Positions 7,949 through 54,503 of a DNA stretch of 64,000 nt are shown here, piece by piece. The position numbers and the translations under genes were made by a program. Source of the stretch: Balneola sp. Its GTDB lineage: Bacteria; Bacteroidota; Rhodothermia; Balneolales; Balneolaceae. The notes beneath the pieces are model-generated. The model searched no databases. It had not been told where the DNA came from and was given only the letters and a program-made list of their open reading frames with translations. How positions within the stretch are numbered: the stretch's first letter is position 1; each line of letters opens with the position of its first letter. The DNA lies in NCBI GenBank assembly GCA_002696035.1, contig NZQV01000022.1, forward strand, positions 1 through 64,000, written 5' to 3'.

Positions 7949-8378
7949 ATCCCCCAGTCCTATTATTTTATTGGGAACCCGATTCCTGAGTCCATATATC
8001 ATGGTCTTCGGGTTTTATGTGATCTTTCACGGACACTATTCTCCCGGCGGAGGATTTCAAGGCGGTACCTTATTGGCCGTTTCCCTTCTTTTGATCCGTA
8101 TTGCAAGTGGCACGCAGATCGCCAACCTCCAATTCAAAGATTATCTGGCAACTCCCTATGCCGCACTTGGTGTAGTCATCTATTTTGGTACCGGCTTGGT
8201 AGCTATGATCATGGGCGGATATTTCCTTGACTACGAGCAACTGCCCATTCCCGGACTTGAAGCCGCCGACCTTAGATACTGGGGCATTCTGATCATCGAA
8301 CTTGGAATTGGGCTGACGGTAATGACCGTACTAACCCTTATCTATGACAACATGGTAAAAGGAGAAGACTATGCTTGA
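7938..8378 (+). CDS. mrpB: Na+/H+ antiporter subunit B (MnhB domain)
   Basis: A 146-residue polytopic protein with the MnhB signature FHGHYSPGGGFQGGTLLAVS at residues 29-48. Four membrane helices are apparent. It corresponds to MrpB or MbhF and participates in the central ion-translocating region. It overlaps mrpC by 8 bp. The order E-F-G-D(DUF4040)-E'-B-C-D equals the mbhA-H order known from archaeal membrane-bound hydrogenases, but no hydrogenase genes follow here. Confidence 0.92.
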   Translation: MTNRSPSPIILLGTRFLSPYIMVFGFYVIFHGHYSPGGGFQGGTLLAVSLLLIRIASGTQIANLQFKDYLATPYAALGVVIYFGTGLVAMIMGGYFLDYEQLPIPGLEAADLRYWGILIIELGIGLTVMTVLTLIYDNMVKGEDYA

Positions 8379-8739
8379 TTTCTTTATGGGACATTATGCG
8401 TACTGGTTTACCATTATTCTGTTGGCCATCGGGTTATATGGTATGCTGATCAAAAAGAATTTGGTAAAGAAGACCATCGGGCTATCCATTTTCCAGGCTG
8501 GTGTGATCTTATTTTTTGTTTCCGTGGCCATGAAAGACGGAGCCACCGTGCCCGTTAAAGCCGATGGATTACCTGTCAGCGAAGTAGCCAATTACATGAA
8601 CGCCCTGCCTCACACCCTCATGCTTACCGCTATTGTTGTAGGGGTAGCGACATTAGGTGTAGCCTTTGCGCTGCTTATCAATATTTATAATCGCTACGGC
8701 ACCCTCAATGAAGAAGAACTTTTAGATAAGATTCAATGA
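8371..8739 (+). CDS. mrpC: Na+/H+ antiporter subunit C (MnhC/NuoK-like)
   Basis: A 122-residue protein with three membrane helices, homologous to NuoK of complex I. The segment MLIKKNLVKKTIGLSIFQAG near residues 25-44 and the helix ALPHTLMLTAIVVGVATLGVA near residues 79-99 are typical of MrpC. It bridges the small subunits and MrpD. It ends with a 4-bp ATGA overlap with mrpD, a sign of translational coupling. Confidence 0.93.
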   Translation: MLDFFMGHYAYWFTIILLAIGLYGMLIKKNLVKKTIGLSIFQAGVILFFVSVAMKDGATVPVKADGLPVSEVANYMNALPHTLMLTAIVVGVATLGVAFALLINIYNRYGTLNEEELLDKIQ

Positions 8740-10229
8740 TCGGATCCGAAATACCGGCGTTAATACCCGTCACATATATCCTGTTTGCGATCCTGATTCC
8801 CGTTATCGGACTCTGGAAACGTGAGATCACCTGGCACCTGGGTGTGCTTGGCACCGGAATAGCGACTTTATTTTCTGCATGGGGATTTATGCATCTCATC
8901 CAGACCGGCGAGACGATCCGCTATTTCTTTGGCGGCTGGGTCCCTCCCATTGGAATCGAATTTGTGTATGATGGCTTAGCTGCTTTTATCGTTTTAGTGA
9001 TCAACGCTATTGCCTTCCTGGTACTCATTCATTCCAAAGAGATCAGCAAAGTTGAATTCCCTGGTAAGAAAATGGCTTACTACGCTGTTTCCATGCTGCT
9101 TATGTTGGGTTTCAACGGAATGGTGCTCACCGGCGACCTCTTCAACCTCTACGTATTTCTCGAAATTTCTTCCCTCTCCAGCTACGCCTTGATAGCGATC
9201 GGAGAGAAACGAGCCCCTTATTCTGCTTTCCGATATTTGATCATCGGAACCGTGGGTGGTTCGCTCTATTTATTAGGCGTTGGATTTTTATACACCGTCA
9301 CCGGCACGCTGAATATTATCGATATGCACGATATGCTGCCGATGGTGATCGGACATTCTTCCGTGATCGCAGCGCTAATTTTGATGATCGTCGGTGTTGG
9401 AGTGAAAGCCGCTCTCTTCCCACTGCACGGATGGCTGCCTGATTCTTATACCTTTGCATCCTCCACTTCCTCTGCATTGATCGCCCCCATCGGGACCAAA
9501 GTAGCGGCATATATTTTATTCAGAGTCGTACTGTTTTTATTTGGGGTTGAACTTATTGACGATCAGCTTCCGGTTACCACTATCATCGGAATTTTTGCAG
9601 GAATTGGGATTCTTTACGGTTCCATCATGGCCATAGCCCAAAGCGAATTAAAGAAGATGCTGGCCTACAGTTCTGTTTCCCAGATCGGATATATCATTAT
9701 GGGAATCAGTCTGGCCAACCCGTTTGGCTTTATTGGAGCCGTGTTGCATATCCTGAATCACGCCATGATGAAAGCCCTCCTCTTCCTCGTTTCAGGAAGC
9801 ATGAGACTAAAAGAAGGTCATTCCCTGATCACGAAATTTGATAATTCATACCGCAAGAAATACCCCTGGACCATGGCTGCGTTTACCACTGCAGCAATTT
9901 CCATGGTTGGACTTCCACCACTCGCCGGATTCTTCTCAAAATGGTATCTGGCGCTTGGAACCATCGAAAACAGCAACTGGATCTTACTGGCTGTCATCCT
10001 GATCAGTTCACTGCTAAACGCTGTGTATTTCTTCCGAATTTTAGAAAAAGTATATCTCAACAATCCCGATGCGGAATCATCTGAAGAAACCGAAGTTGTA
10101 GAACGAGATGAAGTCGGTTTCAGCATGATGTTCCCCATGGCCGTGATGGCGATCGGGCTGTTATTGGTAGGTATCTTCAACGCCTACATCGTAAATGTAA
10201 TTTTCACCATGTTTCCGGCAGGATTTTAA
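8736..10229 (+). CDS. mrpD: Na+/H+ antiporter subunit D (NuoM/N-like)
   Basis: A 497-residue polytopic protein of the Proton_antipo_M family, the likely ion-pumping subunit D of the antiporter. Visible motifs include NLYVFLEISSLSSYALIAIG around residue 135, LFPLHGWLPDSYTFASSTSS around residue 230 and LKKMLAYSSVSQIGYIIMG around residue 305. The Glu in the LEISS helix and the Lys residues in the broken helices are those expected for proton conduction. Of the three large subunits in this operon it is the best match to canonical MrpD, since it directly follows mrpC. It is 11 bp upstream of the second large subunit gene. Confidence 0.92.
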   Translation: MIGSEIPALIPVTYILFAILIPVIGLWKREITWHLGVLGTGIATLFSAWGFMHLIQTGETIRYFFGGWVPPIGIEFVYDGLAAFIVLVINAIAFLVLIHSKEISKVEFPGKKMAYYAVSMLLMLGFNGMVLTGDLFNLYVFLEISSLSSYALIAIGEKRAPYSAFRYLIIGTVGGSLYLLGVGFLYTVTGTLNIIDMHDMLPMVIGHSSVIAALILMIVGVGVKAALFPLHGWLPDSYTFASSTSSALIAPIGTKVAAYILFRVVLFLFGVELIDDQLPVTTIIGIFAGIGILYGSIMAIAQSELKKMLAYSSVSQIGYIIMGISLANPFGFIGAVLHILNHAMMKALLFLVSGSMRLKEGHSLITKFDNSYRKKYPWTMAAFTTAAISMVGLPPLAGFFSKWYLALGTIENSNWILLAVILISSLLNAVYFFRILEKVYLNNPDAESSEETEVVERDEVGFSMMFPMAVMAIGLLLVGIFNAYIVNVIFTMFPAGF

Positions 10230-10240
10230 ATAGATAAATA

Positions 10241-11725
10241 ATGGATCTTACGTACATCCCTTTATATGCTGTTCTTGTATCGCTGGCTGCGGTGCCGTTC
10301 ATCTTGCTGAGTTCAAAAAAACCGAATCTCCGTGAGTTCTGGACCATCCTGGCCGGAGTGATCAAATTTCTGTTGGTACTCACCTTACTCCCCTCTGCCC
10401 TGCAGGGAAATGTGATAGAACTGGAGCTCTTAGAAATTGCGCCGAACCTGCCTCTGGTGTTTAAAGCCGATACCTTTGGTGTTTTCTTTGCATTGATCGC
10501 CTCCGGATTGTGGATCTTCACATCGTTCTATTCCATCGGCTACATGCGAGGTCACCACGAGAAAAAGCAGACCCGCTACTTCGCCAGTTTCGCCATTTGT
10601 TTGAGTTCCACTATCGGGATCGCCTTTTCCGGCAACTTGTTGACCTTCATCATCTTTTACGAGATGCTGACGCTTGCAACTTACCCGCTGGTCATCCACA
10701 GCGAAACCAAGAAAGGAATTGCAGCCGGACGCAAATATCTGACTTACACCTTAACCGCCGGACTATTACTGATTGCCGCCGCCGGGATCACCTATGCTTT
10801 AACAGGAACTTTAGAATTCACCCCGGGTGGTATTTTTGGAGATGTGGATCTATCTCAGTCAATGGCTGTGGTGATCTTCTTATTATTCCTCGGAGGCGTT
10901 GGGGTAAAAGCCGGTATCATGCCGCTGCATAGCTGGCTTCCTTCTGCAATGGCTGCTCCAACTCCGGTAAGTGCTTTATTGCACGCCGTAGCTGTGGTAA
11001 AATCCGGTGTATTCGGGGTGATCCGCGTAGTTGGATTTATTTTTGGTCCTGATGTCATGGCGGAATTTGGCCTCAACGAAATTTTGATGGTACTGGCGGG
11101 AATCACGATCATTGTTGCTTCCCTGCTCGCTTTTGCACAAGATAATTTGAAACGCCGGCTCGCGTATTCTACGGTAGGACATCTCTCCTACATCGTACTC
11201 GGAGCTGCTTTGCTGACCGAAACGGGATTGATCGGTAGCATGATGCACATTTCTTTTCACGCCACCATGAAGATCACCCTCTTCTTCTGTGCGGGAGCCA
11301 TCATGGTGAATCTCCATAAAAAAGATATTAGCACGATGAACGGCATCGCAAAAGTGATGCCCTGGACCATGGCCGCATTTACCATCGGCTCTATGGGACT
11401 TGCCGGAATTCCTCCGGTAAACGGATTTGTAAGTAAATGGTATCTCGCCTCCGGAGCGCTTGAAGGCGGAATGATAATACCCGTGGTCATATTAGTGATC
11501 AGTGGTTTATTGAACGTGGGATATTTCTTCCCCATCATTCATCGCGCCTATTTCAAAAAAGGAGGTCCTGAACTGGAAGGCCACACCGAAGCCTCCCCAT
11601 TCATGGTAGTACCGTTGATGGGAACAGCCGTTCTTTCCATTTTATTTGGATTGAACCCCGACCTGTTCTTCAATTTCTTTGATATGGCAACCGCTGTTGC
11701 TGCAAGTATTTTTAACCCCATATAA
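10241..11725 (+). CDS. Second NuoL/M-like antiporter subunit
   Basis: A 494-residue polytopic protein of the Proton_antipo_M family, paralogous to the preceding MrpD. Motifs include TFIIFYEMLTLATYPLVIHS around residue 135, MPLHSWLPSAMAAPTPVSAL around residue 230 and LKRRLAYSTVGHLSYIVLG around residue 305. The conserved helix Glu (FYEML) and Lys positions are kept, so it should be able to move ions. In Bacillus-type Mrp the second large subunit is MrpA. Here the MrpA C-terminal parts are separate small genes, so this or the next ORF may take the MrpA N-terminal place. Which one cannot be settled by eye. It is 2 bp upstream of the small ORF at 11728. Confidence 0.85.
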   Translation: MDLTYIPLYAVLVSLAAVPFILLSSKKPNLREFWTILAGVIKFLLVLTLLPSALQGNVIELELLEIAPNLPLVFKADTFGVFFALIASGLWIFTSFYSIGYMRGHHEKKQTRYFASFAICLSSTIGIAFSGNLLTFIIFYEMLTLATYPLVIHSETKKGIAAGRKYLTYTLTAGLLLIAAAGITYALTGTLEFTPGGIFGDVDLSQSMAVVIFLLFLGGVGVKAGIMPLHSWLPSAMAAPTPVSALLHAVAVVKSGVFGVIRVVGFIFGPDVMAEFGLNEILMVLAGITIIVASLLAFAQDNLKRRLAYSTVGHLSYIVLGAALLTETGLIGSMMHISFHATMKITLFFCAGAIMVNLHKKDISTMNGIAKVMPWTMAAFTIGSMGLAGIPPVNGFVSKWYLASGALEGGMIIPVVILVISGLLNVGYFFPIIHRAYFKKGGPELEGHTEASPFMVVPLMGTAVLSILFGLNPDLFFNFFDMATAVAASIFNPI

Positions 11726-11727
11726 TT

Positions 11728-11943
11728 ATGAAAACCTGGCACTGGATAGCACTTGGAGTCGTTTTTGTCATCAGTTTGATTCTTGAATTCTTTTTTATGG
11801 AGATTAAGAGTCCGCATTGGTGGAACAGCATCCCTGCGTTTTATGCGATATGGGGATTCCTTGGTACCGTGGCTATCATTTATATCTCCAAATGGTTAGG
11901 CAAATTGTTCATTTTTAGAGACGAAGACTACTATGATGCTTGA
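11728..11943 (+). CDS. Small two-helix membrane protein of antiporter operon
   Basis: A 71-residue protein has two membrane helices (WIALGVVFVISLILEFFF and AFYAIWGFLGTVAIIYISKW), with a short loop containing HWWNSIPAF and a charged tail ending in EDYYD. I recall similar small proteins with an EDYYD/E end beside multi-subunit antiporter genes, but I cannot name a characterised family. Its position between two large subunits, 2 bp after one and overlapping the next by 11 bp, suggests an accessory subunit that packs between them. Function is unknown. Confidence 0.75.
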   Translation: MKTWHWIALGVVFVISLILEFFFMEIKSPHWWNSIPAFYAIWGFLGTVAIIYISKWLGKLFIFRDEDYYDA

Positions 11944-15612: not shown

Positions 15613-15975
15613 CTATTCCTGTAAAACAGAGAGCAACTCCTCTCCTTTAACCTGCCAGTGCGAGCCGTCCCAACTTACTTTCTTTTCCTCAAGCAAAATT
15701 ACCTGCGGCGATTCGTGTCGAATACCGAGTTCTTTAGCAACTACATTTGAAACAGGCCGGTCTTGAATAACATCTATGATGTATAAATCAGCCCTCTTGC
15801 TTAGTTCCTCAAAGCTTGAATCCAGTTCCTGCTTCGCCATGAAACTAACACCGCAACTTGGGCTGTGCTTATAGATTAGCTGTGGCTTATTCTCTGACTT
15901 TTCTAAAATGGAATGAAAATCTTCTATCCCTGTAATCGTATTCCAGATTTGTTCAATTTCTGCTCTTGATGTCAT
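15613..15975 (-). CDS. ytxJ: Bacillithiol-system redox protein YtxJ (copy 1)
   Basis: A 120-residue thioredoxin-fold protein of the YtxJ family, associated with bacillithiol-dependent redox chemistry. The candidate active-site Cys41 lies in KHSPSCGVSF, where the family normally has a monothiol motif. The downstream IVDV-like strand (YIIDVIQDRP) and the cis-Pro region ELGIRHESPQVILL are intact. The open frame runs upstream to 16026, but I chose the ATG at 15975 because it matches the family start and avoids overlap with the hydrolase gene. It is the last gene of a five-gene redox operon. A second paralogue is at 54105. Confidence 0.88.
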   Translation of the reverse strand: MTSRAEIEQIWNTITGIEDFHSILEKSENKPQLIYKHSPSCGVSFMAKQELDSSFEELSKRADLYIIDVIQDRPVSNVVAKELGIRHESPQVILLEEKKVSWDGSHWQVKGEELLSVLQE

Positions 15976-16001
15976 TGTTTTGATTAAATTAGATATGAAG
16001 T

Positions 16002-16763
16002 TCAATTTAAATATCGCTCCGCCCATGCCCCAGCTACCCGGCCTACATAAAGTGCATCTTCTTCTTTAGTTAACAGGTGATCTGCATCGTCAAGCGAAAT
16101 AAAGCTCTTCGGATGTTTAGCCAGTTTGTAAATATGAGCTGCATTATCGATACCAACCGTATCATCAATAGGAGAATGAAAGATCAGTAGCGGCTTTCCG
16201 AGATTTTTGATGATCCCATCCATATTCTGTTCATTCAGGTCATCCAGAAACTGTTTCTTGATCGTGAACACTCGTCCGGCTAACTGAACTCTTGCTTCTC
16301 CTTTTTCCAAAATTTCTTCCTTTTTATCCAGCAAGTGATGTGTTACATGTTGCGGATTACAAGGCGCACCAATAGTAGCAACAGCCTCAACCGACTCGAT
16401 GAATTTTGTAGCTTGAAGAACAGCGGCCCCACCCAACGAGTGTCCCATTAACATTCTGGGTGCATGAAATTCTTGAGCCATAAACTCAGATGCCTTTACC
16501 AGATCTTCCACATTCGAGGAAAAGTTGGTATCGGCAAAATCACCTTCACTTTCTCCCAATCCCGTGAAATCAAATCGTAAAACGCCCATACCCTGATCGG
16601 TTAAAGACTGACTGATTCTCCCTACAGCTTTCAAATTCTTACTGCAGGTAAAACAGTGAGCAAACAGAACCGCCCCTCTTGATGTTCCATCTTCAGGCTC
16701 ATCAATTCTGGCAGATAATTTCTCCCCTTTACTTCCTTCAAATTGTACTTTTCTACTCTTCAT
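16002..16763 (-). CDS. Alpha/beta hydrolase (OsmC-fusion-type hydrolase half)
   Basis: A 253-residue serine hydrolase of the alpha/beta fold. The nucleophile elbow is MGHSLGG with Ser109; the likely Asp is in PIDDTVG near residue 198 and the His in DDADHLL near residue 227. The sequence (VLFAHCFTCSKNLKAVGRIS) strongly resembles the N-terminal half of the bifunctional hydrolase/OsmC proteins. Here the OsmC peroxiredoxin half is absent and the frame ends after the hydrolase. It is the fourth gene of the redox operon, 9 bp after the GDCCVxC gene and 26 bp before ytxJ. A role on thioesters or peroxide-damaged substrates is only inferred from the family and neighbours. Confidence 0.85.
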   Translation of the reverse strand: MKSRKVQFEGSKGEKLSARIDEPEDGTSRGAVLFAHCFTCSKNLKAVGRISQSLTDQGMGVLRFDFTGLGESEGDFADTNFSSNVEDLVKASEFMAQEFHAPRMLMGHSLGGAAVLQATKFIESVEAVATIGAPCNPQHVTHHLLDKKEEILEKGEARVQLAGRVFTIKKQFLDDLNEQNMDGIIKNLGKPLLIFHSPIDDTVGIDNAAHIYKLAKHPKSFISLDDADHLLTKEEDALYVGRVAGAWAERYLN

Positions 16764-16772
16764 ATACTTTGA

Positions 16773-16979
16773 TCAACAACAATTGTTTGAATTCTCATTT
16801 TGTTTCGGCGGACAGGGAACGGTTCCATAGCTGCAGAAAACACAACAGTCATTTTCCTTTGGTTTTGCTATTTCACCGCATGAAGGACATTCCCAAAAAT
16901 ATTGACAAGCATCCTCCGGCATTTTTTCTGAGACAGAATGGGCACAATTCGGACACATAATTTCAGAAATCAATTTCAT
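16773..16979 (-). CDS. GDCCVxC-domain cysteine-rich small protein
   Basis: A 68-residue protein with eleven cysteines. An N-terminal zinc-ribbon-like CPNC...CPSC pair is followed by NDCCVFCSYGTVPCPP, the hallmark of the GDCCVxC (seleno)protein family, in which the first Cys of a pair can be selenocysteine. Here all positions are ordinary TGC or TGT Cys codons and no in-frame TGA is seen, so this is the cysteine form. The first motif residue is Asn instead of Gly. Function is unknown; metal binding (mercury or copper) and thiol chemistry are the usual guesses. It is the third gene of the redox operon. Confidence 0.8.
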   Translation of the reverse strand: MKLISEIMCPNCAHSVSEKMPEDACQYFWECPSCGEIAKPKENDCCVFCSYGTVPCPPKQNENSNNCC

Positions 16980-16985
16980 ATTTAG

Positions 16986-17711
16986 CTACCTATATTCAGG
17001 ATTTTCAAAATTCCAGCGGGTTCCGTCATCCCAGTCCTTCCGTGAATTTCCATAGTTGGGATACCCATTATTTTCTTTCAACATTTTCGCAAGGTGTAAA
17101 AGATTATAGGTCATAAAAGTAGTATTTCTCTTGGTGAATTCATTATCAAAGCCAATAGTTTTTCCATCTCTTATATCCCCATAACTTGGTCCGGGCCCTG
17201 CTTCCCCGATCCACCCGGCATCGGCTTGTGGAGGAATGCTGTATCCTACATGTTGAAGTGCATACAAAATTCCCATAGCACAGTGTTTGATGCCATCTTC
17301 ATTTCCTGTCACCAGGCAACCACCGGCCTTTCCGTAGAAAGCATATTGTCCCTTTTCATTTTGAAGGCCACTCATGGCATACAATCTCTCGATCAACTTT
17401 GTGGCTACAGACGATTTCTCGCCTAACCAAATGGGAGTTCCAATGACCAGAATATCAGCAGCCTTAATTTTTTTCCAAAGTTCGGGCCACTCATCATTCT
17501 CAACTCCATGTTCAGTCATATCAGGATAGACCCCATATGCAACGTCATAATCAACGAGCCTAATACATTCAGCTTCAACACCTTCTTTTTCCAGGATACG
17601 CATGGAAACATCTATCAAGGTTCGAGTATGGCTATTTTGCGGAGACTTTTTTAGAGTGCAATTTACATACAAGGCTTTAAGGCCTGAAAAATCCGGTTTT
17701 TGATCAAACAT
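16986..17711 (-). CDS. NAD(P)H-dependent flavin oxidoreductase (flavodoxin family)
   Basis: A 241-residue protein of the NADPH-dependent FMN reductase/flavodoxin-like fold. The N-terminal strand ALYVNCTLKKSPQNSHTRTL carries the phosphate-binding loop, and the segment ILVIGTPIWLGEKSSVATK is the typical flavin-contact loop with a conserved Trp. A later GGCLVTGNEDGIKHCAMGIL region completes the fold. It would reduce disulfides, quinones or other oxidised compounds using FMN. It is second in the redox operon, 50 bp after the dsrE-like gene and 6 bp before the GDCCVxC gene. The physiological substrate is unknown. Confidence 0.83.
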   Translation of the reverse strand: MFDQKPDFSGLKALYVNCTLKKSPQNSHTRTLIDVSMRILEKEGVEAECIRLVDYDVAYGVYPDMTEHGVENDEWPELWKKIKAADILVIGTPIWLGEKSSVATKLIERLYAMSGLQNEKGQYAFYGKAGGCLVTGNEDGIKHCAMGILYALQHVGYSIPPQADAGWIGEAGPGPSYGDIRDGKTIGFDNEFTKRNTTFMTYNLLHLAKMLKENNGYPNYGNSRKDWDDGTRWNFENPEYR

Positions 17712-17761
17712 AGTTTATCCTGTTTATTGAAATGGTTTGAATGAGAAGTTCAGGGTTGATT

Positions 17762-18118
17762 TTAAAAGGTTACGATCTGATATCCATCAGTCATGAAGTT
17801 TCTAAGGCTGGGATGGTCATCATAATTATCCAACAAATTCACATCTGTTTTGTGTACTTCATTGATCACGCCAAACGCTTTTGAACAAAACTTACAGGCT
17901 CCATGTATACTTCCTTCGATGGCTTTATAGAGTGGATGCGCGTCGTGTTCTTCATCGGCGAGTTCAGGAACCCAAGTTGTGCCAGCTCCATCAAAAATGA
18001 CCTTTACGTCATCATCATGGTCTTGTAATTCTTTGGCAAATTCGAGGGCATTTACCACTCTTCCAAGGGCTTCATGAGTTCCAACTTCACTTAAAACAAC
18101 TACAGCTACTTTATTCAT
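17762..18118 (-). CDS. DsrE-family protein
   Basis: A 118-residue protein of the DsrE/DsrF-like fold, a family of sulfur-relay or persulfide-handling proteins. Typical features are the first strand VAVVVLSEVGTHEALGRVVN, the strand DVKVIFDGAGTTWV and a Cys-x-x-Cys in HGACKFCSKAFGV near residues 93-99. The CxxC points to redox activity or metal contact. It is the first gene of the operon running through YtxJ, so the operon promoter should lie in 18119-18300. The partner molecule is unknown. Confidence 0.83.
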   Translation of the reverse strand: MNKVAVVVLSEVGTHEALGRVVNALEFAKELQDHDDDVKVIFDGAGTTWVPELADEEHDAHPLYKAIEGSIHGACKFCSKAFGVINEVHKTDVNLLDNYDDHPSLRNFMTDGYQIVTF

Positions 18119-18622
18119 AATCCAATCAAACTTTGGTTAATGATTAACGGTGTCATAGACGCTCTGTCTTGCTTGATTCTTACTTACCTAAATAACTCCA
18201 CAAAGATTTACGCTTCACTCGGCGAAACTCCGCGTGAAATTTTTATTTAAAATAATTTTAGGTTCACTAATAACCATAGTTGTCTTTTTTGTAGATGCCA
18301 TCTTATTCGATAACAATATTCAGTGATGTAGCTATATCGAACTCGATACTAAAATTATCTTCACTGTTGTCACCCCGAGTCGCGTTGTTGCTGAAATAGA
18401 TTTGGGAAGTTCTCCGCGAGGGGTCTCAAAGTCTCCAATGACATATGGTATTTTACGTTGAGATCCCTCATGTTCAAGAAGTTCTCCCTTCGCACTTCAC
18501 GGGGCATTCGGGATGACAACATTTTTGGGTTGTTAAGGATTTTCTGTCTCATTCATTGTAACACGAATGAAATTATTATGAATAAATCTGTCTCTTTTGG
18601 TGTTGCGCAGAACTTAAGTCTC
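18119..18622. promoter_or_regulatory. Intergenic region before the redox operon with repeat copy C
   Basis: These 504 bases lie between egtD and the dsrE-like gene, both on the minus strand. The segment next to 18118 must hold the redox-operon promoter, but I could not assign boxes. The left part contains the 153-bp palindromic repeat at 18367-18519. A 60-codon open frame across the repeat is not a gene. Confidence 0.5.
18367..18519. repeat. Palindromic dispersed repeat, copy C (153 bp)
   Basis: The left arm TTGTCACCCCGAG and the right arm TCGGGATGACAA are inverted. Inner arms are GAGGGGTCTCAA and TTGAGATCCCTC, which pair with two mismatches. It has the same length and layout as copies B and D. 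The sequence resembles intergenic repeats common in Bacteroidota-like genomes. Confidence 0.78.
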
Positions 18623-19567
18623 TTACTTCGTTAAGAATTGCACTGTAAACATTTCTTTTTTATCGGTCCAGGTTTTTTGGGGTTGAAAGTGAGGGGCTGT
18701 TATCTCTCTAAAAGATTCCAAAGAGTATTTGTGGGAATTTTCGGTGTGAATGGTTTCCCCTTTCGAAAAGTGAATTACCGTTCCCATAATATCAACCTGC
18801 TGATCTTTTTGGCTGACCAAGTGCATCTCGATCCGACTTTTTTCTTCATTGAAAAAAGCCCGGTGTTCAAAAGAATCCACATCAAAATCTGCCGCCAGCT
18901 CCCGATTTATTCTTCTTAGTATATTTTTGTTGAATTTAGCGGTCACCCCTTTCGCATCATCATAAGCGTTGATCAGTGTATCTCTGTCCTTCAAGAGGTC
19001 AAACCCGATCAACAGTCCTCCGTTATCTCCCAACAGATCGGCGAGCAATGCGATGAAATCAGCTGCTTTTTCTTTGGTGAAGTTGCCAATGGTTGACCCG
19101 GGATAATAGGCGACTCGACGAGCATCAAGATCCGCCTCCGGAAGATCAAAAGGTTTTGTGTAATCAGCTGCAACAGGAATGATATCTAACAATGGGTACT
19201 CTCTCTGCAGGTTTTCTACTACATCAGCCAGAAAATCATTGGAAATATCCACCGGCACATACGAATTAATCTCCGGTAAATGATCAAGCAGTAATCTGGT
19301 TTTCAGACTGCTTCCACTCCCCAACTCGATCAGCTGAATTTTGGAACCAAGCTGGTCGGTGATCTCATCAATATTATCCCGCATAATGGAAAGCTCCGTT
19401 CTTGTAGGATAGTATTCATCCAGCTCACAAATTTGTTCAAAAAGTTCGGACCCTCTTTTATCATAAAAATATTTACTCGGCAAGCTTTTCTGTGGCTCCT
19501 TCAGTCCCTGCAGAACTTCTTCCAGCATTCGTGATACCCTGGCGCTCAACTTCGTTATTGTTGTCAT
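18623..19567 (-). CDS. egtD: L-histidine N-alpha-methyltransferase (EgtD)
   Basis: EgtD trimethylates histidine to hercynine with S-adenosylmethionine, the first step of ergothioneine synthesis. The 314-residue product has the family layout: an N-terminal region SLPSKYFYDKRGSELFEQI that precedes the Rossmann domain, the SAM-binding ELGSGSSLKTRLLLD near residues 81-95, YYPGSTIGNFTKE near residue 158 and a C-terminal antiparallel domain ending in TVQFLTK. It lies 28 bp downstream of egtB, with which it forms a two-gene operon. Confidence 0.94.
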   Translation of the reverse strand: MTTITKLSARVSRMLEEVLQGLKEPQKSLPSKYFYDKRGSELFEQICELDEYYPTRTELSIMRDNIDEITDQLGSKIQLIELGSGSSLKTRLLLDHLPEINSYVPVDISNDFLADVVENLQREYPLLDIIPVAADYTKPFDLPEADLDARRVAYYPGSTIGNFTKEKAADFIALLADLLGDNGGLLIGFDLLKDRDTLINAYDDAKGVTAKFNKNILRRINRELAADFDVDSFEHRAFFNEEKSRIEMHLVSQKDQQVDIMGTVIHFSKGETIHTENSHKYSLESFREITAPHFQPQKTWTDKKEMFTVQFLTK

Positions 19568-19595
19568 AAAAAAATCTGTAGATGTTTAAATTATT

Positions 19596-20903
19596 TTATC
19601 GAGCTAAGCGGATCCCATTAAACTGCCAGCGCTCGTTGGCATGGAAAAAATTGCGATAGGTTTTTCGAAAGTGTGATTTAGAGGTCGCACAAGATCCCCC
19701 CCGTAGCACGTACTGATTGCACATGAATTTTCCGTTGTACTCTCCCAAAGCACCGGGCAAGGGTTTGTATCCTGGATAAGGTGCGTACGAGCTTTGCGTC
19801 CACTGCCAGACCTCTCCAAACATTTGCTGAAGTCCTTCTTCTGCATTCTGTAAAGCTACGGGTTGAAGGTTCCCGGCATCCGCATAGTTACCTTCAATTT
19901 TCAGTGATTCAGCAGCCAACTCCCACTCCTGTTCGGTTGGCAATCGATAACCTTTCCACCGGGCGAAAGCATCAGCTTCAAAGTAGCTGACGTGCGTAAC
20001 CGGTTCACTCAAGTCTACTTTTTGCATTCCGCTTAGAGTATAATGCCACCATTCACCCTCTCTCTTCTCCCAATAAAGTGGAGCTGACCACCCATCGTCC
20101 CGAACCAGGGAAAAGCCTTCATCCAGCCACCATTTAGGTTCTTCATACGCGCCTGACTCAATGAATTCTATAAATTCGGCATTGGTCACTAGTCGGTTCG
20201 AAAGTTCAAAATCATGGATGTATGTTTTGTGCCGGGGGAATTCGTTGTCGTAGCCAAAGTCATTTCCCTTGTGACCTACTTCATACACACCCTCTTCAAA
20301 CGTGCTCCAACTAAGCTTTGGTACTGACTTCACTTTCGGACGATCTACATCCTTATAGCTAATATCCAGCGGATTCTGAGAGAACATATATTTCAGATCC
20401 GTCATCAGTAATTCCTGATGCTGCTGCTCGTGATGAATCCCAATTTCAATGATGGGCGCCCACTCTTGATACTGCCGATCGGTAGCATTTTTGATCAAAT
20501 TGAGGACATGCTCGTTGATGCTTTCCCGGTATTCAAAAACCTGCTTAACAGTAGGACGTGAAATATTGCCCCTCCGGGCCCGGCAGTGTGGAACTCCGGT
20601 TTGCAGATAATAGGAATTAAATAGATAGCTGTATTGGGGATGGATGGGATCATAATCCTCGATCTCTTTCTCCAGCAGAAAGGTTTCAAAAAACCAGGTG
20701 GTATGCGCCCGGTGCCATTTGGCCGGACTCGCATTTTCCGTGACCTGCACCACAAAATCTTCAATTTCCAGCGGTTCAGTGATCTCTTCTGTAAATGCTC
20801 TCACCTTATTAAATTTACTAATGAGTTCCTTCCTCGAATATCTGAATCCTTGGCTGTCTTCATCATTTTCTATCCGATCAGATTGTAAAGCAGGATTATC
20901 CAT
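19596..20903 (-). CDS. egtB: Ergothioneine biosynthesis sulfoxide synthase EgtB
   Basis: EgtB is the non-heme iron enzyme that joins a sulfur donor (cysteine or gamma-glutamylcysteine) to hercynine. The 435-residue protein has an N-terminal DinB-like domain with likely iron ligands in AKWHRAHTTWF (His64) and GIHHEQQHQE (His158, His162), and a C-terminal formylglycine-generating-enzyme/sulfatase-modifying domain (YRLPTEQEWELAAES, QYVLRGGSCAT, NGIRLAR). Length is as expected. No egtA or egtC gene is adjacent, which is common in bacteria whose EgtB uses cysteine directly. Substrate choice cannot be read by eye. It is the first gene of the egtBD operon. Confidence 0.94.
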   Translation of the reverse strand: MDNPALQSDRIENDEDSQGFRYSRKELISKFNKVRAFTEEITEPLEIEDFVVQVTENASPAKWHRAHTTWFFETFLLEKEIEDYDPIHPQYSYLFNSYYLQTGVPHCRARRGNISRPTVKQVFEYRESINEHVLNLIKNATDRQYQEWAPIIEIGIHHEQQHQELLMTDLKYMFSQNPLDISYKDVDRPKVKSVPKLSWSTFEEGVYEVGHKGNDFGYDNEFPRHKTYIHDFELSNRLVTNAEFIEFIESGAYEEPKWWLDEGFSLVRDDGWSAPLYWEKREGEWWHYTLSGMQKVDLSEPVTHVSYFEADAFARWKGYRLPTEQEWELAAESLKIEGNYADAGNLQPVALQNAEEGLQQMFGEVWQWTQSSYAPYPGYKPLPGALGEYNGKFMCNQYVLRGGSCATSKSHFRKTYRNFFHANERWQFNGIRLAR

Positions 20904-54104: not shown

Positions 54105-54503
54105 TTAGAATTGCAAGAGATCTGAAAGTGCCTGTGCTTTTACCTGATAATGCGAGCCATGCCATATTACGCTACCTTCTTCCACCACAATAAGTTGGGG
54201 TGATTCGTGTCTCACACCCAATTCATCCGCAATGGTACGGGACAGGCCCCGCTGCTGAATAACATCCACCAAATAGAAATCCGCTTTCTCAAGATCCTCT
54301 TCCGACAAATTCTGCAGATCTTTCAGCGCTAAATAACTGGTAGCACATCGCGTGCTGTGTTTATAAATAACCTGAGGCAAACTATTGGATTTCATCAGAA
54401 TCTCTTTGATGGCCTCTTCACCGTCAACTGCATTCCAATGTTTATATTGGGGTGAATGATCTTCCAAAGCAGAGCCAAAAAATTGTTTAAGTGCGTTTAG
54501 CAT
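54105..54503 (-). CDS. ytxJ: Bacillithiol-system redox protein YtxJ (copy 2)
   Basis: A 132-residue YtxJ paralogue, about 12 residues longer at the N-terminus than copy 1. The candidate active-site Cys53 is in YKHSTRCATSY, closer to the KHSTxC form known from Bacillus YtxJ than copy 1 (KHSPSCGVSF). The partner strand YLVDVIQQRGLS and the cis-Pro segment GVRHESPQLIVVE are intact. It stands alone, with promoter DNA on both sides. Two divergent copies suggest different partners or conditions. Confidence 0.88.
   Translation of the reverse strand: MLNALKQFFGSALEDHSPQYKHWNAVDGEEAIKEILMKSNSLPQVIYKHSTRCATSYLALKDLQNLSEEDLEKADFYLVDVIQQRGLSRTIADELGVRHESPQLIVVEEGSVIWHGSHYQVKAQALSDLLQF

Follow-up and report, generated by a model that had tools for sequence, protein, structure and literature searches.

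A packed five-gene run with a largely thiol-related theme in a Balneola genome and the scattered recurrence of its genes

A run of five genes in a genome of Balneola sp. can be compared with several described systems. These are the sigmaR/RsrA regulon of actinomycetes, whose disulfide-stress logic is set out in the consulted part of PMC4360819, the bacilliredoxin BrxC/YtxJ of Bacillus and Staphylococcus, for which the same part of that paper names a TCPIS-type motif, mercury (mer) operons with a GDCCVxC gene (merTP-GDCCVxC and merT-merP-GDCCVxC), bifunctional alpha/beta hydrolase/OsmC proteins and the DsrE/TusD family. The run lies at 15613-18118 on the minus strand of the stretch of DNA analysed here, referred to as the window (64,000 nucleotides, positions 1 to 64,000 of contig NZQV01000022.1, assembly GCA_002696035.1; the genome is denoted G000). 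Its genes are called dsrE, fmn (flavodoxin-fold), gdc (GDCCVxC), abh (alpha/beta hydrolase) and brxC. The run is real, packed and largely thiol-themed, and it is not a conserved operon. On balance, we find it slightly more probable than not that the five genes form a single operon, which would be a compact accessory cassette against thiol stress built from parts of a mosaic island of the Balneolaceae; the protein families and the neighbouring genes suggest a role in thiol, oxidant or soft-metal stress.

All five open reading frames (ORFs) are co-directional, and the tight packing reported by the first-pass annotation, which was made from the sequence alone, was borne out, with gaps of 50 bp between dsrE and fmn, 6 bp between fmn and gdc and 9 bp between gdc and abh. 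The abh/brxC junction depends on the start of brxC, and is either a 25-bp overlap (ATG at 16026) or a 26-bp gap (ATG at 15975). The family calls made at that stage agreed broadly with the profile matches, except that DsrE scored under the Pfam cut-off (PF02635, 20.0 bits against 22.7) and that a flavin reductase role for fmn is putative. The fmn product (16986-17711, 241 amino acids (aa)) is a flavodoxin-fold protein resembling NAD(P)H-dependent flavin mononucleotide (FMN) reductases (FMN_red, 3.5e-15), and gdc (16773-16979, 68 aa) encodes a Cys-rich GDCCVxC-domain protein in which the motif reads ENDCCVFC (NF041374, 92.5 bits, 1.4e-26, passing the cut-off of 40). The abh product (16002-16763, 253 aa; Hydrolase_4, 2.5e-14) is a stand-alone alpha/beta hydrolase homologous to the hydrolase half of OsmC fusions, with GHSLGG and C37-x-x-C40. 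The last gene, brxC (15613-15975, 120 aa, or 15613-16026, 137 aa from the first ATG), encodes an accessory monothiol bacilliredoxin YtxJ/BrxC that passed the cut-offs of both PF11009 (114 bits against 24.2, 3.5e-33) and TIGR04019 (116.9 bits against 77.25); the query for searches was 15613-15987, starting four codons ahead of the ATG at 15975. A thiol or sulfur chemistry had been proposed for all five genes, and the thiol/redox theme was supported for the run, whereas an action of fmn and the hydrolase on thiols was not. Promoter and terminator scans of the cluster region gave matches at chance level.

The genes dsrE, fmn, gdc and abh co-localise beyond random placement in most pairings. Co-localisation was counted as a distance within 20 kb in genomes having both genes, and the expectation was calculated for uniform placement in a 3.7-Mb genome, with G000 excluded from the expected counts. 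The pair dsrE-fmn was co-localised in 5/6 genomes including G000 and in 4/5 outside it (expected 0.05), dsrE-gdc in 4/7 and 3/6 (expected 0.14), fmn-gdc in 5/15 and 4/14 (expected 0.26) and fmn-abh in 5/23 and 4/22 (expected 0.26), while dsrE-abh reached 2/8 outside G000 (expected 0.09). Values for an anti-sigma gene of the island in relatives, here called c6, were 8/8 with fmn (expected 0.09), 6/7 with dsrE (expected 0.08) and, outside G000, 4/17 with abh (expected 0.2) and 5/14 with gdc (expected 0.30). The ergothioneine gene egtB was co-localised with fmn in 3/14 genomes outside G000 (expected 0.16). In the survey of the class, which comprised 117 genomes including G000 and used thresholds that differed between gene searches, carriers numbered 9 for dsrE, 18 for c6, 26 for fmn, 41 for GDCCVxC, 57 for EgtB, 61 for the hydrolase, 87 for brxC and 116, among them G000, for the bacillithiol enzyme gene BshC.

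Gene orders in the relatives ruled out a conserved five-gene unit, the order of the window being kept in no other genome examined; poor conservation of the order was the criterion by which the first-pass annotation itself would have its operon rejected. Partial orders were observed in three loci. In G173 (L035/L060, Rhodohalobacter sulfatireducens), egtB, egtD, dsrE and fmn follow one another directly, brxC lies about 6 kb further, and both a GDCCVxC copy carrying an in-frame stop and the hydrolase gene are located within about 23 kb. A Gracilimonas metagenome-assembled genome (MAG; L053) contains dsrE (90% identity) and fmn (87%) in the order dsrE-fmn, followed by a broken gdc, of which only residues 20-68 remain in a frame without a start-codon ORF of at least 40 aa, and a brxC remnant of 28 residues (11184-11632); no hydrolase match was present in this locus, which represents either a cluster decaying in the MAG or a faulty assembly. 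In a Balneolaceae MAG (L054), the end of egtD and two other genes are followed by dsrE-fmn-GDCCVxC and the contig edge. From the orders in the window, L053 and L054, dsrE-fmn-GDCCVxC is therefore common to three loci, probably continuing into brxC in two of them, and the hydrolase gene looks either inserted in the window cluster or lost in loci of the L053/L054 type.

The islands of the relatives contain varying sets of genes for an extracytoplasmic function (ECF) sigma factor, the anti-sigma factor c6, AhpC/TSA-TlpA, CcdA, DoxX, AhpD-like/CMD, DUF302 and DUF3179 proteins and one or two flavin adenine dinucleotide (FAD) disulfide reductases. An HxxxCxxC motif, which we take to be of the ZAS type, was present in 10/10 c6 proteins inspected, and the one c6 protein scanned had RsrA as its best named match, with 22.6 bits where the cut-off is 62.5. 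The ECF sigma factor, the small HxxxCxxC anti-sigma factor and the thiol-redox genes recall the sigmaR/RsrA regulon; the differences are this low RsrA score and G000 itself, where no c6 match was found (the search there was for c6 and not for the ECF gene, and an anti-sigma factor of more divergent sequence may be present). Because the island anti-sigma gene was not found in G000, the cluster is probably controlled by another regulator there. In two members of the window's genus, G185 and G219, fmn is directly followed by the ECF gene and then c6 (L134, 10050-11810; L133, 8340-10100), a candidate thiol-stress unit. As a separate observation, c6, ECF and dsrE occur together in a Rubrobacteraceae MAG (L101, 8170-10351), which extends the sigma/anti-sigma link to another phylum. 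Proteins of the DUF3179 and DUF302 families are found repeatedly in such islands (L041, L035, L138).

The clearest new lead is the association of a CxxC-containing DsrE protein with FAD disulfide reductases, which was seen chiefly in haloarchaea. The window gene (17762-18118, minus strand) encodes a DsrE/F-fold protein of 118 aa with the pair C75-x-x-C78. Since its sequence matched solved structures only weakly (E 0.2), the fold was predicted instead: the AlphaFold2 model, built from 35 sequences, had a pLDDT (predicted local distance difference test) of 97.4, and a Foldseek search gave one match at E<=0.001, with SSO1126, TusD and DsrEFH chains at probabilities of 0.99-1.00 (TM 0.65 for TusD and 0.61 for DsrEFH). 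The protein is thus predicted to share the fold of the DsrE/TusD family, from which it differs in its CxxC pair, its sub-threshold Pfam score and the linkage of many of its relatives to FAD disulfide reductases. Both cysteines were invariant in 35/35 aligned close relatives, and the first was missing in two sequences of a wider alignment (n=12; L042, L047). UxxC is described for DsrE-like selenoproteins in the consulted part of PMC1088965, and a redox CxxC in DsrE would fit this. Selenocysteine-containing members are described among AhpD-like, CMD, OsmC-like and DsrE-like families; a selenoprotein reading of the window was dropped, as its five genes are open with standard codons.

For the dsrE neighbourhoods we took the best 80 of 207 relatives from species-level genomes, of which 48 were haloarchaeal by title. 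A homologue of MerA-like FAD reductases was present in the fetched flanks of 39/80 loci and DUF3179 in 19/80, including haloarchaea. Among the 72 loci from outside Balneolaceae, the reductase homologue was located within 3 kb in 30 (in L075 as an open-ended frame); in 22 it was the same-strand gene immediately upstream, no more than 1.5 kb away. The matches peaked beside dsrE: the 41 loci whose flanks were complete had 25 within 5 kb but only 7 at 5-10 kb. Gaps between the two genes were 9-151 bp in 12 loci. The gene pairs lie at about 8300-11760 in haloarchaea and Methanoperedens (L079, L083, L093, L104, L110, L116, L118, L127, L129, L131), and the Methanoperedens reductase (L079), one of the 12 with short gaps, passes the MerA cut-off. 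CLNRGC was present in 25/36 reductase entries compared, these haloarchaeal proteins being 66-93% identical to two reference members; two haloarchaeal reductases that were scanned passed the cut-off of a 'dihydrolipoyl dehydrogenase' subfamily, and mycothione reductase was one of the models ranking next. According to the consulted part of PMC7278568, a Halobacterium protein annotated MerA reduces gamma-glutamylcysteine disulfide (bis-gamma-glutamylcystine) and lacks mercuric reductase activity, and databases frequently list its homologues in haloarchaea as dihydrolipoamide dehydrogenases. The haloarchaeal neighbour of dsrE may be such a bis-gamma-glutamylcystine reductase. Neither mercuric reductase nor glutamylcystine reductase was found together with the DsrE family in the literature searched, a weak negative given that subscription journals were mostly uncovered.

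The remaining proteins also have described counterparts. BrxC agrees with the BrxC/YtxJ family in passing the Pfam and NCBIfam models, in having a single Cys and in the presence of BshC in G000; it differs in its active site (SCGVS instead of TCPIS) and in being an additional copy in a genome that has a further brxC. The bacillithiol link suggested earlier is supported by BshC, present in G000 and nearly universal in the class. For fmn, the sole solved relative by sequence was 5mji, presumably RosB, and 41% identity to a plasmid gene annotated rosB indicated RosB homology; the chemistry of the protein may be that of an FMN reductase or RosB-like. C144 and C18 were conserved in 20/21 and 19/21 fmn proteins, respectively. 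A Mesorhizobium plasmid has its fmn relative one gene from a fused hydrolase/OsmC gene, and another plasmid has it directly behind a peroxiredoxin-like gene.

The abh hydrolase shares 50-56% identity with plasmid-borne homologues that are fusions, or are annotated as such, of the bifunctional alpha/beta hydrolase/OsmC type and retains GHSLGG and HCFTC, but has no OsmC domain. That the usual fusion partner is lacking had been singled out at first; this is true, yet nothing special, since the hydrolase frames were short (251-314 aa) in 39/39 genomes of the window's family with a match, while they reached at least 409 aa in 19/22 genomes with a match from other families. A split OsmC partner beside the hydrolase gene was ruled out, as none of the six OsmC genes in G000 is located on the cluster contig. 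HCFTCSK and GHSLGG were invariant in 7/7 aligned hydrolases. The family contains two groups by identity to the window protein, of 75-77% (G081, G161, G173, G189, G224) and 59-66% (the others). A combination of OsmC, alpha/beta hydrolase and hypochlorite was not met in the literature searched, again a weak negative with most subscription journals uncovered.

If the five genes constitute one accessory thiol-stress operon, the products could act together under oxidant, electrophile or soft-metal stress. BrxC would strip bacillithiol off S-bacillithiolated proteins, and the CxxC pair of DsrE would act as a dithiol or persulfide carrier from a flavin disulfide reductase to a client or back. The flavodoxin-fold protein may supply NAD(P)H electrons via FMN, GDCCVxC may bind a soft metal ion, for example Hg(II), and pass it on, and the hydrolase, with the conserved CxxC in its HCFTCSK segment, may clear some ester or thioester. 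Several results weigh against this interpretation besides the unique gene order and the missing c6 match in G000. The genomes are related and the trials not independent, so that the p-values of the co-localisation counts are too small. The gene brxC was near dsrE or fmn in G000 and G173 only, which is not above chance (the brxC list was partial, and the L053 remnant comes in addition), and it joins the co-localising set weakly. Nor were abh-gdc (2/32 outside G000, expected 0.53) and gdc-egtB (0/27) above chance; the same was true of c6-egtB (0/11). In the phylum sample of 148 genomes, fmn was present in 17 at E<=1e-15, and 13 of 15 loci, read for about 6 kb on each side, were without any other cluster gene, the exceptions being L020 with egtB and egtD and L024 with dsrE and the start of the hydrolase gene. 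Among 18 regions read, the sole query gene was fmn in 3 (G030, G178, G225), gdc in 5 (G205, G061, G159 and, on their second contigs, G189 and G193) and egtB in 1 (G191). The best MerA-like gene of G000 is located on another contig, C25, without other query genes in the 20 kb read, and the link of dsrE to the reductases rests mainly on haloarchaea: of the 30 loci where a reductase lies no further than 3 kb away, 25 are haloarchaeal.

Many of these observations would be expected if recombination had merely placed unrelated stress genes side by side at a hotspot, with no common pathway. Gene order is unconserved, each gene is patchy in its own way, and fmn mostly stands alone in the phylum. Transfer of fmn is indicated because four members of other classes (71-74% identity to the window) are closer than 8/11 other family members with a match (52-67%). 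Against this, the same small gene set recurs in several genomes in differing orders, as would suit genes selected together or belonging to one regulon, and a sigma/anti-sigma pair accompanies many of the recurring sets; we consider such a chance assembly unlikely. A persulfide or sulfur-transfer pathway, in which DsrE is a sulfur carrier like TusD/DsrE and the other proteins reduce the resulting persulfides, draws on the fold that DsrE is predicted to share with TusBCD and DsrEFH, on the conserved Cys pair and on a Haloferax plasmid in which some 4 kb separate dsrE from a rhodanese-like gene. Yet no sulfur-transfer family was among the 20 island proteins scanned (rhodaneses and Tus/Dsr partners were not searched systematically), the genes often found nearby encode disulfide reductases and peroxidase-like proteins, and CxxC, like the UxxC of the DsrE-like selenoproteins in the part of PMC1088965 consulted, fits dithiol chemistry at least equally. 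This explanation appears to us quite improbable.

The run might also be, in essence, an operon for tolerance to soft metals (mercury), with GDCCVxC at its core and the other genes repairing metal-caused thiol damage. We read 13 GDCCVxC plasmid records, five from the best matches and eight from an even spread, and in 8 of them an annotated MerT, MerP or MerTP lay within two genes of GDCCVxC; the others had, one each, an ars operon, a nearby heavy-metal P-type ATPase, a MerR-family regulator only, a nearby nikR and an adjacent DoxX. A MerT/MerP homologue was likewise found in 22/57 IMG/VR GDCCVxC loci. The proposed metal link of this protein was therefore upheld, whereas the statement that it has no known role holds for its function and overlooked the mer context. 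A MerR homologue was directly upstream of gdc in L040, L141, L143 (137.7 bits, below the cut-off of 150.85), L144 and L145, and MerR-MerTP precede it in L148. Tn5563 has a defective mer locus (PMC4785139, in the part consulted), and its mer region may correspond to the merR-merP-GDCCVxC plasmid records. The window gene retains the invariant Cys of the family but, unlike the mer operons, has no mer transporter or regulator beside it: MerR, MerT and MerP homologues were not found in the cluster neighbourhood. MerTP occurred only in L148 among 12 distinct genomic gdc loci scanned, and where gdc adjoins an FAD oxidoreductase, in three distinct loci of class relatives including Balneolaceae (L036, L055 = L037, L138), the reductases were PRK06370 'FAD-containing oxidoreductases' above cut-off in 3/3 and below the MerA cut-off. 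A mercury operon is thus a doubtful account of the run.

Beyond the accessory thiol-stress operon, one could speculate that in Bacteria and Archaea alike the disulfide reductases of low-molecular-weight thiols have a thiol relay of their own in the CxxC DsrE protein. It would be paired with an FAD reductase, possibly bis-gamma-glutamylcystine reductase, in haloarchaea and with a MerA-type enzyme in Methanoperedens. In Balneolaceae its partners would be MerA-like reductases and the genes for bacilliredoxin and ergothioneine, and there GDCCVxC together with the flavodoxin-fold protein would complete a pathway clearing metal- or oxidant-damaged bacillithiol. We regard this proposal as rather unlikely as a whole. 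To our knowledge, GDCCVxC, the CxxC DsrE group, the OsmC-linked hydrolase, DUF302 and DUF3179 have no firmly assigned role. That they repeatedly occur together and alongside sigma and anti-sigma genes of a redox type, in some places also alongside bacilliredoxin and ergothioneine genes, provides a testable context in the thiol stress of Balneolaceae, and the link between the DsrE-fold CxxC protein and FAD disulfide reductases in two domains would, if functional, represent a new carrier in low-molecular-weight-thiol recycling.

The fold model of GDCCVxC was moderately confident (pLDDT 80) and had 0 matches to solved structures at E<=0.001; weak ones, none significant, included zinc-ribbon proteins (rubredoxin, LysW). 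The protein was absent from the literature searched, which is a weak negative, since subscription journals were largely outside the coverage. Upstream of dsrE, the same-strand run extends across a 504-bp gap (18119-18622, minus strand), a candidate promoter region in which the promoter scan gave no significant match, into egtD (18623-19567, minus strand; histidine N-alpha-methyltransferase of ergothioneine synthesis, TIGR03438, 405 bits) and egtB (19596-20903, minus strand; ergothioneine biosynthesis, TIGR03440, 554 bits), both above cut-off. The window EgtB was 86% identical to that of G191 and 78% to that of G173, as compared to 57-66% for the remaining family members with a match, which suggests that egtD-egtB (18623-20903) may be a separate, transferred lineage. 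Outside the cluster, a sequence match identified a second brxC paralogue at 54105-54503 on the minus strand; it is probably the core copy, because most family members with a match have one brxC, 32-51% identical to the cluster copy. In G189 (contig C29, 4870-6226; L038/L059), an OsmC gene precedes dsrE in the same orientation at a distance of about 700 bp. Homologues of the hydrolase were present in 726 plasmid records, of which 294 were from Klebsiella and 493 were predicted to be conjugative.

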